IMG/VR virus record: IMGVR_UViG_3300030061_003813
Span: 34,654-58,154 of that record
Length of the DNA stretch: 23,501 nucleotides
Origin: a virus
Strand: one strand, 5' to 3'
The notes below the pieces were generated by a model that was not told the DNA's origin, ran no database searches, and was given only the letters and a program-made list of their open reading frames with translations. Made by a program: the position numbers and the translations under genes. Of the stretch, positions 2,018 through 15,819 are shown one piece after another; position 1 is the stretch's first letter; every line of letters begins with the position of its first letter.

Positions 2018-4456
2018 TCAGTTACCCCAAATTGTTAGGACAGCACCGTAGGTACCAGAGGAGATCGTAGCTTTACGAGAAGCTCCTGCTGTAATATCAA
2101 GAACATCTCCTGCACTGCTATATAAACCTGTATTGGCATCATCAATAAATGCAATGCCAGGGGTTGCCTGATTGCCTGAAGCAAAGAAAGCTTGGTCTCT
2201 AGAAGTTAATCCACTTTGCAGATAAACTTCACCGCTGACATTAAGATCACCGCTAACAGTTAAGTTATCTCCTACAATAAAGACATCATCAATGTAGAGA
2301 TCATTAAATTGACCGGTAGTAAACGTTGCTGTTTCACCCGTAACAGTTGTGCCTGAAATCGTACCTGTTACAGTCAGATTTGTTCCAATCAGAATGCCAC
2401 TGACAAAGTTACTAGTCCCAGTGACTGTAATACCTTCACGGAAAACACTGGCTCCACTAACAACAATTCCACTATCAAAGACAGAATTACCACTAACTTC
2501 TAAGTCACCGCTAACGGTAAGATTGTCACCAATAACAAAGTCATCATCAACAAATAAATCTTGGAATGTACCTGTTGTAAATAATGCTCTAACACCTGTT
2601 ACTGTCTGTCCAGAAATAGTGGCACCTGATAAAGTGTTTGCAAGAACAGTTAAGCCAGTAACAGTTCCATCAAAAGCACCACTTGCTGCAGTTATTTCTT
2701 GAACAGCATCAATAAATTGACCTGAGATGCGATAACCAGTGATTGTGTTGCTAACAAATAAATCACCGGTAATTGTGATTTCACCACCACTAATAACAAT
2801 TCCACTAATTGTGCTGGTCCATGTTGGTGCTTCACCTGCTCCTTGTGATACCAAGACTTGTCCGTGAGCACCGTAGTTTTCACCACCAAGGCCTAACGCT
2901 CCATATCGACTAATACGTAATCGTTCAGTACCACTTGTTGAGAACCCTAAATATTTATCTAGTGCAGGATTGCCATCAATAACACCACTAGTAATAAAGA
3001 TGCCTGTATCATCTTCTCCTTCAAAAGTAATCGAAGGATTGGCAGCACTGCCAGAAGCAAAAACTCCTGTTTGTGCATGGATTGTCGTACCTGAGAACAA
3101 TGTTCCTGTTACGTTGGTGAAGACACCTGAAGCTCCACTAAAAGTTGTAAATTCTGCACTGGTGCCTGTAGCAGTTACGAAATGTCCACTTGTCGTAGAA
3201 ATTGTTGTGCCAGTAATGGTTCCACTGACATAAACATTGTCACCACTGATTGTGCCGCCTGTAATGGTTGGTGCAGTAATGATGGTGTCAAAATTACCAG
3301 ACTGTGCAGTAATCGTTTGACCACTAACTTCTCCAGTTACAGTAATGCCTGAAGCAAAATAACCTGAACCACTAATGAATAAATCTTCTAAAACAGTAAA
3401 ACTACCGCTAACAGTTTGGTCACCACTAAACTGAAGGTTGGCTGCAGTTAATGTTTGAGCTTGAAGGCTATTAAATAAACCAGACGCACCAGTAACAGTT
3501 GTTCCTGATAAGAAAGTAAAGAAACCAGAAGTTCCTAAAGTAACACCTAGGCTTGCTACATCACCTGTAATAGTGGTCCCTGAAAAAGACGTAGCGTGTG
3601 AACTATAGCCTGTAAGATTTAAAAACTGTCCGTAATCACCTGTAATTGTGGTTCCTGACAGGTTTGCAACATCAATAAAGGTTCCCGTTGTTCTTTCAAA
3701 AAATGCTGAATTACCTGTAATAGTCGTGCCAGAAATTTGAGTTGTAAATACAGCGGTTTGACCTGTTAGCGTCGTGTATTGACCAACATCTCCAGTAATC
3801 GTTGCACCAGAAATTGTTCCAGTTGCATTAATATCGTTGGCATTAATCGTTCCACTGTGAGTCAGAATGCCTGTAAAGGTTACATTATCTGCTGTAAGCG
3901 TATCAATCTGTGCAACCTGAGCATACAGATCATTGATATCTGCATCAACGATAATGCCTGATACAACACCAAAACTTTCACCTGTCAGGGTCGCTCCTGA
4001 CATTGTGTCAAAGAAACCGGTAACAAAGTCAATTGTTGTGCCAGTAATAATGGTAGTGAAATTACCTGAACTAATTTCTACATAGTCGGCAATAACATTA
4101 TTGACTTCAATTTGAGTACCGGTAATCGTACCTGTTACAGAAAAACTACCGCTAGTTGTTAAATCTCCACCGACAATAACAGCTTGAAAATCTGAGTCAC
4201 CACTTACGGTTAAATCATTAAGACTAGTAGTTCCACTAACACCCAGATTACCTGTAATGGTAATATTGTTGTATGTAGGATCTTCGCCAACGTTAATATA
4301 GTATTGATCTAAGTAGTCTTTAAAACCACTAAAAGTAATCTTTTTATTCCTTAAAGCCGGATCAACTTCAAAGACGTGAACCAGGGTCAGAAGATCTGCA
4401 TTAGCAATATCTACCGATTCAATCGTCGGAAATTGTGAGATCTTTCTATTGGCCAC
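2018..4456 (-). CDS. Large repetitive tail-fibre shaft protein (812 aa)
   Basis: The first 50 residues (KISQFP, then DLLTLVHVFEVDPALRNKKITFSGFKDYL in outline) form a non-repetitive head that resembles the attachment domain of marine phage fibres. From about residue 60 the protein is a long series of Thr/Gly/Ser-rich strands. SG(T/A)T(I/V)TG recurs at residues 216, 242, 267, 292 and 317, a period of about 25 residues, which fits a beta-helical trimeric shaft. The shared box appears twice, at about 468-487 and 760-779, and GQVLVSQGAGEAPTW sits at 532-546. Two copies of an approximately 45-residue block lie at about 623-667 and 709-753. The start is GTG at 4456 (reads as MANRKISQFP); no other start is available in frame. 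Fibre identity is strong; its attachment site is unknown. Confidence 0.8.
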   Translation of the reverse strand: MANRKISQFPTIESVDIANADLLTLVHVFEVDPALRNKKITFSGFKDYLDQYYINVGEDPTYNNITITGNLGVSGTTSLNDLTVSGDSDFQAVIVGGDLTTSGSFSVTGTITGTQIEVNNVIADYVEISSGNFTTIITGTTIDFVTGFFDTMSGATLTGESFGVVSGIIVDADINDLYAQVAQIDTLTADNVTFTGILTHSGTINANDINATGTISGATITGDVGQYTTLTGQTAVFTTQISGTTITGNSAFFERTTGTFIDVANLSGTTITGDYGQFLNLTGYSSHATSFSGTTITGDVASLGVTLGTSGFFTFLSGTTVTGASGLFNSLQAQTLTAANLQFSGDQTVSGSFTVLEDLFISGSGYFASGITVTGEVSGQTITAQSGNFDTIITAPTITGGTISGDNVYVSGTITGTTISTTSGHFVTATGTSAEFTTFSGASGVFTNVTGTLFSGTTIHAQTGVFASGSAANPSITFEGEDDTGIFITSGVIDGNPALDKYLGFSTSGTERLRISRYGALGLGGENYGAHGQVLVSQGAGEAPTWTSTISGIVISGGEITITGDLFVSNTITGYRISGQFIDAVQEITAASGAFDGTVTGLTVLANTLSGATISGQTVTGVRALFTTGTFQDLFVDDDFVIGDNLTVSGDLEVSGNSVFDSGIVVSGASVFREGITVTGTSNFVSGILIGTNLTVTGTISGTTVTGETATFTTGQFNDLYIDDVFIVGDNLTVSGDLNVSGEVYLQSGLTSRDQAFFASGNQATPGIAFIDDANTGLYSSAGDVLDITAGASRKATISSGTYGAVLTIWGN
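2231..2360 (-). repeat. Imperfect coding duplication, downstream copy
   Basis: Roughly 130 nt matching 2489-2618 at a constant offset of 258 nt (86 codons). Both encode '(D)LTVSGDL.VSG' and '.FTTG.F.DL(Y/F).DD.F..GDN'. This is an internal duplication in the fibre shaft. Confidence 0.7.
2489..2618 (-). repeat. Imperfect coding duplication, upstream copy
   Basis: Partner of 2231-2360, with the same reading frame and no length change between the copies. Confidence 0.7.
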
Positions 4457-8577: not shown

Positions 8578-9003
8578 ATGTTTAAGCCTCCTAAGCAAGA
8601 AAAAAGTTATTCTTATCAAGAGCAAGGACTTAATCCTTTTTTTGATAATCAAGGTAATGTTGTAAATAAATCCAGTAAAAGTCAAGCACTTGCTACTCCT
8701 ACGTTTTTTACTGCTACTAGTTATCAACAAGATACTCCACCTTCTTCAACATCTACTAACCAAGCTTTTTCTTTTTTAAGTAATAATCCTGTAGAAACAG
8801 GTGTTGATTTAGCCCCAGAGCCTGGTGAAGAAACTGTAAATGTTCAAGGATCTACAGGAGAAGCAACTGTACCTCTTGAGGATTTTGAACAACTTTTAGG
8901 TAAATTAGAAGGTTCCAAAATGCGTCAACAAAGACAAAAATCTGTTGAAGGCAGAAGAGATATTTATGCTGAAGGATTAGCTTCTATGATGGGAAATTTT
9001 TAA
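8578..9003 (+). CDS. Hypothetical Ser/Thr/Gln-rich protein (141 aa)
   Basis: Last gene of island B, 20 nt after the DUF3310 stop. The N-terminal half is rich in Ser, Thr, Asn, Gln and Pro and probably unstructured; the C-terminal part (EDFEQLLGKLEGSKMRQQRQ, then 'YAEGLASMMGNF') looks like helices. It has no recognisable domain. Its stop (TAA 9001-9003) shares a TTAA palindrome with the convergent gene. Confidence 0.65.
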   Translation: MFKPPKQEKSYSYQEQGLNPFFDNQGNVVNKSSKSQALATPTFFTATSYQQDTPPSSTSTNQAFSFLSNNPVETGVDLAPEPGEETVNVQGSTGEATVPLEDFEQLLGKLEGSKMRQQRQKSVEGRRDIYAEGLASMMGNF

Positions 9004-9317
9004 TCTCTTTGACGCCAATCGTCAGTTTTTTCTTGGCTAAACCATTGAGCCATATCTTCAACACTTTTAAATTCTGTGCGATGGTTACTTGGATCAGGAT
9101 CTCCCAAATCCATAGCATTCATAAAACTGTCTAAACCTTCAGCAGGCATGTCTGGATTAGCTGCAAAACGACGTGCTTTTCGCATCATTTCTCCTGCTGT
9201 TCGATTTGCTTTTGCTAATTTCTCAGCCCATACCATGTCTTTTAACTGAACTTCTTCTCCTTTAGAAATGCGTTCACAAATAAACTCAAGACGCAAGCGG
9301 TAGTTCGTCGATAACAT
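9000..9317 (-). CDS. Conserved hypothetical helical protein (105 aa)
   Basis: The sequence starts 'LSTNYRLRLEFICERISKGE', followed by 'VQLKDMVWAEKLAKANRTAG' and a basic helix 'MMRKARRFAAN'. The C-terminus is acidic/polar (KSVEDMAQWF). Similar 'NYRLRLEFIC.RI..GEEV...DM.WAEKLAK' proteins occur in cyanophages as unknown proteins, to my recollection. It is small, soluble and all-helical, located 21 nt after the NblA-like gene and probably transcribed with it. Function unknown. Confidence 0.65.
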   Translation of the reverse strand: MLSTNYRLRLEFICERISKGEEVQLKDMVWAEKLAKANRTAGEMMRKARRFAANPDMPAEGLDSFMNAMDLGDPDPSNHRTEFKSVEDMAQWFSQEKTDDWRQRD

Positions 9318-9338: not shown

Positions 9339-9629
9339 TCAAAAAGATGCCTCTAAATCATCATCATCGTCTTCTTCCATTGCCATCATGGTCATAGCCA
9401 GCTGTGTTAATTCAATATCACTAGGAATGTCAAATTCAAGTTCAATATTTTCATCTTGCATCATGTCTTTAATTGCTTGCATTTCTAGCAGCCTTTGATG
9501 ATACAGATTCAAAAGAGCTGCATAAAGCTGATCCCATGTTAATTCTTTAGCTTCAAGTTCAGCTCTACGCATGGCGAGTTGCAAATGAAGTGGTAATTCA
9601 AACTCTTTTACAGATGCTGATTCACCCAT
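9339..9629 (-). CDS. NblA-like phycobilisome-degradation adaptor (candidate)
   Basis: Residues 10-57 align without gaps to the NblA of Synechococcus elongatus as I remember it. 'F.L.(L/V)...Q..(L/M)' opens both. A region 'EL/DI-(T/S)-x-(D/E)-(Q/D)-L' follows, then 'x-Q-(R/K)-(L/M)...' and a final 'I.K.M(M/I)'. NblA is a helical adaptor of about 55-65 residues that brings phycobiliproteins to the Clp protease; some freshwater and uncultured marine cyanophages carry it. This protein has 96 residues, because a C-terminal tail of about 38 residues ends in a poly-Asp stretch (MEEDDDDDLEASF). A good SD (AAGGA at 9638-9642) precedes the ATG. The neighbours are endolysin upstream and an unknown helical gene downstream. 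Alternatively it is an unrelated two-helix protein; the resemblance is motif-level only. Confidence 0.5.
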   Translation of the reverse strand: MGESASVKEFELPLHLQLAMRRAELEAKELTWDQLYAALLNLYHQRLLEMQAIKDMMQDENIELEFDIPSDIELTQLAMTMMAMEEDDDDDLEASF

Positions 9630-9667: not shown

Positions 9668-10333
9668 CTACCTTTGTATCTCAAAAATACCCCGCAATTC
9701 TTCATCGGAAAGCACTATATCCGTGATACTTCCTAAACTAAAATTGTTAGCAAACACAGATAATACATAAGGATTAATGTGCTGCTCTAATTCGCGTATT
9801 GCTCTTACTTGATGAGGAGCGGCTGCATAATTTCTAAAGGCTTTTAATAAAACTTGGTCTGATGTCCAGGGATTGTCGTCATTTTCTTTTAAAAATAATT
9901 TAGCTTCTTGTCGTCTTCTGTCAATAAGTCCACCAATAACCTGATGCTCACTATCAAAAATCCACTTTGAAAATTCATCTGCTGCCAAGACGTATTCTTT
10001 ATGTTCACATAAGTCAATTATTTCACTATACAAAAAAGCATCCCAGCCAATCGAATGAACGAAAGAAATTAAACCTTCTTTCATTGAAAGATTCAAATCT
10101 AATTTTAGTTTGTCAAGCTGTTCTGCAATAATTTTAATTTCATGTTGCAAATATTCTTGAGCTTTTTCTTTTGTACAACAATGTCCTTGTTTTACTTTTG
10201 AACCGTCAGGATAAAATTGTGTTCCATAGCCTAAGGTATACGGATCTTTTCCTGTGTTTGGATCACAATATGCTTTCTCGTTAAAACCCTCAAATGTTTT
10301 AACAAGTAACGCTGCATTTTTGTAAGAACACAT
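9668..10333 (-). CDS. Endolysin, T4-lysozyme-type muramidase
   Basis: The N-terminal domain has the GH24/T4-lysozyme catalytic order: Glu15 in 'FEGF', Asp24 in 'CDPNTG' nine residues later, and Thr33 in 'YTLGYGT', the same Glu-to-Asp spacing as T4 lysozyme (Glu11, Asp20). 'FVHSIGWDAF' (about 91-100) and 'GGLIDRRRQEAKLF' (about 134-147) match the domain's core. About 70 residues follow beyond the usual end, with 'RAIRELEQHINPY' and 'VLSDEELRGIF', which may aid cell-wall or virion binding. No signal peptide is seen, so release from the cytoplasm would need a holin. It cleaves peptidoglycan between MurNAc and GlcNAc. The neighbours (the 37-aa basic gene upstream, the NblA-like gene downstream) are on the same strand. 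Confidence 0.88.
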   Translation of the reverse strand: MCSYKNAALLVKTFEGFNEKAYCDPNTGKDPYTLGYGTQFYPDGSKVKQGHCCTKEKAQEYLQHEIKIIAEQLDKLKLDLNLSMKEGLISFVHSIGWDAFLYSEIIDLCEHKEYVLAADEFSKWIFDSEHQVIGGLIDRRRQEAKLFLKENDDNPWTSDQVLLKAFRNYAAAPHQVRAIRELEQHINPYVLSVFANNFSLGSITDIVLSDEELRGIFEIQR

Positions 10334-15182: not shown

Positions 15183-15443
15183 ATGTCAAAGAAAATCTGG
15201 TTTCCTGTGAAGGAAGCCTTGGAAGAATTGCAAATTGAGCGCAAGCAGCTTTTCCGTATGAGAGATGACGGAACGTGCAAGCTTGGAACGCATTATGCCG
15301 CATTTCCTGAGACTAGGTCAAGAGACAACTATCGCTGGAATGTTCCCAAGGTTAAAAAAATTCTGAAAGAACAAGAGGCTAAACAGAACACAGAAGTAAT
15401 TTCTGTTTCTTTTGACAACCGATTGTCCTCTGAGGCCGCCTAG
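15183..15443 (+). CDS. Excisionase-like small DNA-binding protein
   Basis: 86 residues: 'WFPVKEALEELQIERKQLFR' forms the helix-turn-helix pattern (about 6-25), followed by 'KLGTHYAAFPETRS' and 'NYRWNVPKVKKILKE', the wing and final helix of MerR/excisionase-type proteins. The layout (HTH, G-x-H-Y, then R-W/I-x-(V/I)-P) is shared with the plus-strand gene at 4987-5451. It stands alone on the plus strand, with a sigma70-like promoter and two inverted repeats upstream, suggesting self-regulation. Its last 65 nt overlap the tail of the convergent integrase-like gene. It could be an excisionase or repressor left from a lysogenic ancestor, or an early regulator. Confidence 0.65.
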   Translation: MSKKIWFPVKEALEELQIERKQLFRMRDDGTCKLGTHYAAFPETRSRDNYRWNVPKVKKILKEQEAKQNTEVISVSFDNRLSSEAA

Positions 15444-15819
15444 CAGGCGTGTAATAAATTTTACGAACTTTATGAGCTAGGAGGACATCATCTATCTGTG
15501 ATACAAGACCTGTGTCTTGAGCTTGCGAGAGTGATTCAGAGAGTGTATCCCAGCAGCTCTTCATTCTGGAGGGCTGTTTTTCTTTGAGTTGAAACAAGAA
15601 AACCCACTGAGGGTGAAGTGGGCGCAATGGTCGTTTTTTATGTTCAAGACTAATGCTGTTGTCTTTGTTCCAAACAAAATGCTTTAGCTCTTCTGGGTGT
15701 TTACCATAAACAGCAACCATCCCATAAAGCCACGCAATTTTTTCCAGTCCTGGTTTGGCTGCTAAAGAAAAGAACTCGTCTAAAATTTCTTGATCGCGAG
15801 GCACGCTACGAATAGTCAT
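15379..15819 (-). CDS. Integrase-like protein, degenerate tyrosine recombinase fragment
   Basis: Residues 1-75 follow the start of the catalytic domain of cyanobacterial and cyanophage tyrosine recombinases: 'RSVPRDQEILDEF', then 'IAWLYGMVAVYG' and, where these enzymes have 'GLRPHEL', 'GKHPEEL' (the catalytic Arg is Lys or lost), next a strand 'ISLEHKKRPLRPLHPQWVFLFQL'. The later His-x-x-Arg and Tyr motifs are not found; the last part (LAHKVRKIYYTPARRP) does not fit the active site. It has 146 residues, against about 300 or more for a full integrase. Either the gene is truncated, or the domain now serves another role. It lies beside an excisionase-like gene, which strengthens the recombination link. 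Family link is fair; activity is unlikely. Confidence 0.5.
   Translation of the reverse strand: MTIRSVPRDQEILDEFFSLAAKPGLEKIAWLYGMVAVYGKHPEELKHFVWNKDNSISLEHKKRPLRPLHPQWVFLFQLKEKQPSRMKSCWDTLSESLSQAQDTGLVSQIDDVLLAHKVRKIYYTPARRPQRTIGCQKKQKLLLCSV
15437..15449. other. Small hairpin at the end of the excisionase-like gene
   Basis: CGCCT-AGC-AGGCG spans its stop codon. There is no T-run, so it is at best a weak terminator; it lies inside the opposing gene as well. Confidence 0.2.

Follow-up and report, generated by a model that had tools for sequence, protein, structure and literature searches.

A diverged NblA-like protein with a conserved acidic C-terminal extension, encoded next to lysozyme in S-EIV1-like cyanophages

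In cyanobacteria, the helix pair of NblA (PF04485; structures 1ojh, 2q8v, 2qdo and 3cs5) dimerises and recruits the unfoldase ClpC, and in the study of 1ojh, Leu51 and Lys53 are said to be the C-terminal residues that bind phycobiliproteins. Published work presents NblA as an adaptor binding both phycobiliproteins and ClpC (PMC7966870, PMC4103541), and the contact with ClpC was reported for a conserved N-terminal motif (PMC4103541). Other phage NblA proteins, including one from an uncultured phage, were reported to be active, with phycobilisome degradation and loss of phycobilin (PMC9602691). Phage NblA is already known: the freshwater cyanophages Ma-LMM01, MaMV-DC and PaV-LD carry it, and the Ma-LMM01 copy matches PF04485 with 52 bits. 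For marine cyanophages, Nadel et al. 2019 reportedly predicted nblA in S-TIM5, S-SCSM1 and cyanopodoviruses. The annotated nblA of S-SCSM1 is ORF237 (L275:8952-9116), whose assignment in its own paper rests on HHpred.

We analyzed a window of 23,501 nucleotides (positions 34654-58154 in a virus record of 58,154 bases) that encodes a protein homologous to these NblAs. Like the cyanobacterial proteins, it has a gap-free helix pair of 50 residues, but it adds a conserved acidic extension of 38 residues. The initial annotation had claimed that the pattern of key residues is preserved, and this holds for L7, L9, Q12, R16, Q29, L37 and Y38, whereas Q11 is replaced by Leu and, in the window, His stands at E10 and Gln at the K53 position. 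The freshwater phages that carry NblA are unrelated to the phage studied here, and their NblA proteins were not recovered by the profile of the S-EIV1-like family; the Ma-LMM01 protein (65 aa) has no acidic tail and keeps LEQQ. The marine predictions are distant NblA relatives in Synechococcus phages, but the S-SCSM1 protein (54 aa) has no tail and matches neither PF04485 nor the family profile.

The locus and its place in the S-EIV1-like lineage

The open reading frame proposed for this protein was borne out, with an ATG start, 96 aa and a stop codon, and it lies on the minus strand, on which the initial annotation was silent (Table 1). It closes a long series of structural genes on the minus strand, 38 bases beyond the lysozyme gene, and this place in the late operon suggests that the NblA-like gene is expressed late. 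The structural run is broken by two overlapping ORFs on opposite strands, one of which (15183-15443, plus strand) resembles a small DNA-binding protein, while a PHROG search with the other (15379-15819, minus strand) gave no match. Elsewhere in the window, an 812-aa protein (2018-4456, minus strand), in which short SGTTITG-type repeats of Ser, Thr and Gly make up most of the sequence, is probably a tail fibre. The 105-aa gene downstream of the NblA-like gene belongs to phrog_507 (S-PM2 T4-like GC 49), a group with 460 cyanophage records, most of which come from T4-like phages of Synechococcus and Prochlorococcus. Among the relatives it was present in just 18 of 78, and it has apparently been exchanged between unrelated picocyanobacterial phages.

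Table 1. Features at the NblA-like locus, in window coordinates (dN/dS values are approximate, from pooled pairwise counts)
Feature	Position	Strand	Evidence
96-aa NblA-homologous protein with C-terminal acidic extension	9339..9629, including stop	minus	ORF, translation (ATG start), family alignments
NblA core, residues 10-58, helix pair 14-29 and 32-59	9456..9602	minus	gap-free profile matches, hhalign, AlphaFold helices, dN/dS 0.035
Conserved segment, residues 59-79 (DENIELEFDIPSDIELTQLAM)	9393..9455	minus	invariant residues, dN/dS 0.058, overlaps part of predicted helix 71-90
Acidic run with conserved Pro-Phe type end, residues 80-96 (window: ...EEDDDDDLEASF)	9342..9392	minus	family alignment
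Phage lysozyme, directly upstream	9668..10333	minus	Pfam PF00959, E = 8e-21; adjacent in 75/75 relatives with room
105-aa downstream gene, phrog_507	9000..9317	minus	18/78 relatives

Among isolates, a similar protein occurs only in Synechococcus phage S-EIV1, as AHV82245.1, which is labelled 'hypothetical protein' and carries no NblA annotation. It is a direct ortholog, 66% identical over residues 1-76, is also encoded next after lysozyme, and has an acidic tail ending in APF, but it is 104 aa long and its acidic run is longer. Genes for dCTP deaminase and a DUF3310 protein that lie near the NblA-like gene are common to the relatives too, and from this ortholog and these shared neighbours we assigned the window to the S-EIV1-like cyanophages. 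Such phages occur widely in both freshwater and the sea, and a prophage of S. elongatus UTEX 3055 has been described as S-EIV1-like (PMC9239245).

Scanning IMG/VR with the family gave at least 558 related stretches. The results showed that lysozyme is directly upstream of the NblA-like gene in all 75 relatives with room, these having been retrieved through the NblA-like gene itself. To avoid circularity, contigs were also retrieved by lysozyme alone, and the NblA-like gene was present in 14 of the 14 with enough downstream sequence. The NblA-like gene is therefore not patchy cargo but a fixed core gene of S-EIV1-like cyanophages, closing their late operon of structural genes and lysozyme. The psbA gene was not found in the nine records searched. 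One relative (L286) has a second partial copy of the C-terminal part of the gene downstream of the intact one (about 3073-3211, plus strand), which is possibly a duplication or an assembly join.

Homology of residues 10-58 to NblA

Single-sequence searches with the window protein alone gave no Pfam and no PDB match, and PF04485 found only a 13-bit partial match on the 58-kb record, in another gene. Because this single-sequence evidence is weak, we tested the family instead. PF04485 matched 15 of 26 diverse orthologs, the best with 27.1 bits (L058) and another with 25.0 (L250) at a cut-off of 25, and in three phage records the NblA-like gene was the sole NblA match and exceeded the cut-off. When the 26-member family profile was searched against the whole PDB (177,635 sequences, E up to 10), a single match was obtained, Anabaena NblA 1ojh (E = 5e-4), gap-free over profile positions 8-59. 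Using hhalign against 17 diverse NblAs, we obtained 52 gap-free columns (P = 5e-7, probability 92%) with a score of 37.8, compared with a maximum of 23.2 in 300 column shuffles and 9.9 for the reversed alignment. Finally, a blind six-frame scan of 386 Cyanobacteriota genomes with the phage-family profile matched 13 genomes, and all 13 sites were nblA in the same register.

From these sequence comparisons, the homology of residues 10-58 to NblA is regarded as established. The comparison made in the initial annotation was upheld by the PF04485, PDB, hhalign, shuffle and blind genome tests; the PDB-wide profile search and hhalign place its gap-free stretch at residues 10-58 or 59. The profile search that the initial annotation had proposed brought relatives over the PF04485 cut-off, with the window protein itself unmatched in Pfam. 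A different protein, PSSP7_019A of P-SSP7 (L171:13741-14049, 103 aa, overlapping an exonuclease gene), is weakly matched by the cyanobacterial NblA profile (E = 1e-3), but its C-terminal part is not an acidic run as in the family studied here. Proteins of this type recur in 39 cyanopodovirus records, including those of Prochlorococcus phages, whose hosts are thought to be without phycobilisomes.

Residue Q11 does not vary across the cyanobacterial set, and 54 of the 59 family members carry Leu at this position; E10, which is His in the window, is Glu in other members. The N-terminal motif thus reads LPLHLQL in the window and LPLELQF in other members, compared with LxLEQQF in NblA, with both Leu residues and Q12 retained. 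The L51 position is Met in the window, where a hydrophobic residue is retained, and at the K53 position the family usually has Gln or Ala; some cyanobacterial NblAs likewise have no Lys there. The changes at Q11, E10 and the K53 position suggest that contacts with ClpC or phycobiliproteins may be changed or lost. AlphaFold predicted the two core helices where they were expected, in the NblA arrangement, and an extra helix at 71-90, with a moderate pLDDT of 75 for the whole model and 87 for the core alone. Foldseek, run with the whole model and with the core alone, returned no NblA structure and no useful match, as expected for a short helix pair.

The acidic extension

The 38-residue acidic tail described at first was confirmed as residues 59-96, with 15 Asp or Glu and no Lys or Arg, and it falls into two parts. 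The segment 59-79 is amphipathic and conserved, with E60, P69, E73, L74 and L77 invariant in 59 sequences, and by the dN/dS values in Table 1 it is nearly as constrained as the core, which has the lowest value of the three parts. The acidic run 80-96 is under weaker constraint (dN/dS about 0.15, approximate as the others). Positions 87-91 are Asp or Glu in nearly all family sequences, and the end is marked by P95 in 86 of 89 and F96 in 80 of 89 sequences, the window ending in ASF. An acidic tail with an aromatic-type end was found in 76 of 76 distinct family members. The dN/dS values indicate that the tail is under purifying selection, as is the core.

Family proteins are 93-105 aa long (96 aa in the window), compared with about 54-67 aa for the usual NblA. 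Among about 80 cyanobacterial NblAs collected, all of at most 67 residues, none has a tail of such kind, and no tailed homolog was found in the 386 cyanobacterial genomes, or in two genomes of the genus of G038, which itself has an elongatus-type nblA. Present in every family member and absent from the surveyed cyanobacterial NblAs, the tail is therefore genuine, an addition specific to this lineage.

Possible functions of the tailed protein

By homology, the protein probably acts as a phycobilisome adaptor like other NblAs. We consider it reasonably probable that it is a diverged NblA whose short helix pair serves as a phage-adapted adaptor for phycobilisome degradation and has gained a docking arm. 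During infection, it would hand phycobilisome proteins to the host Clp protease, and the breakdown of the phycobilisome would free amino acids and lower light absorption. Less firmly than this delivery to Clp, we infer that the tail (helix 71-90 and the acidic Pro-Phe end) is the docking arm, which could make contact with ClpC, with a phycobiliprotein or with another partner of phage or host origin and so offset the altered N-terminal motif and K53 position. The initial annotation had proposed that the phage may dismantle the phycobilisome and that the tail could alter Clp docking or timing. The tail may stand in for a contact that was lost, or the protein may have been put to a new use.

Repurposing would mean that the core of an NblA descendant still dimerises while its acidic Pro-Phe tail docks another partner, for example SSB-tip-binding proteins or a virion or lysis component; we regard this as rather unlikely. 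The altered NblA functional positions are consistent with it, as is the universal presence of the gene in the lineage, unlike typical patchy metabolic cargo; a core gene adjacent to lysozyme could have been taken up for a different function. The acidic end with its nearly invariant P95 and F96 also resembles SSB tips: cyanobacterial SSBs from the same searches end in DYDDIPF, GEDEIPF and DEVPF, and the phages' own SSBs in KDPF, DDAPF and DEPF. However, only 42 of the 76 distinct proteins end exactly in Phe, and many others end in PFFG or PFFI, which are ill-suited to a terminal-carboxylate pocket; the ASF end of the window and the stronger selection on the core than on the tail also argue against repurposing. 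Because nearly half of the family extends beyond the Phe, we kept the SSB-tip resemblance as a lead only. In a further reading that we find unlikely, NblA would have been joined throughout the lineage to an acidic Pro-Phe tip like that of SSB, giving a core protein that links antenna destruction to, for example, the replication machinery and is not a simple adaptor. The SSBs of S-EIV1-like phages (L312 and L317-L320) have Pro-Phe ends poor in acidic residues, and the NblA-like proteins of the same phages have strongly acidic ends of the Pro-Phe type.

It is very improbable that the gene encodes a virion-assembly protein unrelated to NblA, such as a tail assembly chaperone. Its late-operon position points in that direction, as does the tail assembly chaperone group phrog_2992, which weakly matches the window protein and 8 of the 26 members (E = 0.004 at best), but the PHROG alignment covers 81 of 301 positions and spans acidic helical sequence, NblA scores far better and is specific, and the gene follows lysozyme and is not beside a recognised tape-measure gene. 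The chaperone assignment was rejected, the match being weak and compositionally driven. A chance resemblance of two short amphipathic helix pairs, which the domain size of about 50 residues and the failure of the single-sequence and Foldseek searches would allow, is strongly disfavoured by the one PDB-wide match being NblA, the uniform register of the nblA sites and the shuffle scores far below the real one.

As far as the literature examined goes, the Nadel et al. 2019 survey aside, a phage family with NblA as a universal core gene and a conserved acidic extension is undescribed; that survey may already list family members among its 'unknown environmental' types. The papers examined that mention both nblA and S-EIV1 do not credit the gene to this phage, and one survey table gives hli and ptoX, and no nblA, as photosynthesis genes of S-EIV1-like phages (PMC5332604). 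If the NblA of these phages is active, S-EIV1-like phages would break down the antenna as a fixed part of infection and not through optional cargo. The conserved tail on NblA would also offer a natural construct for probing adaptor docking, which is poorly understood.
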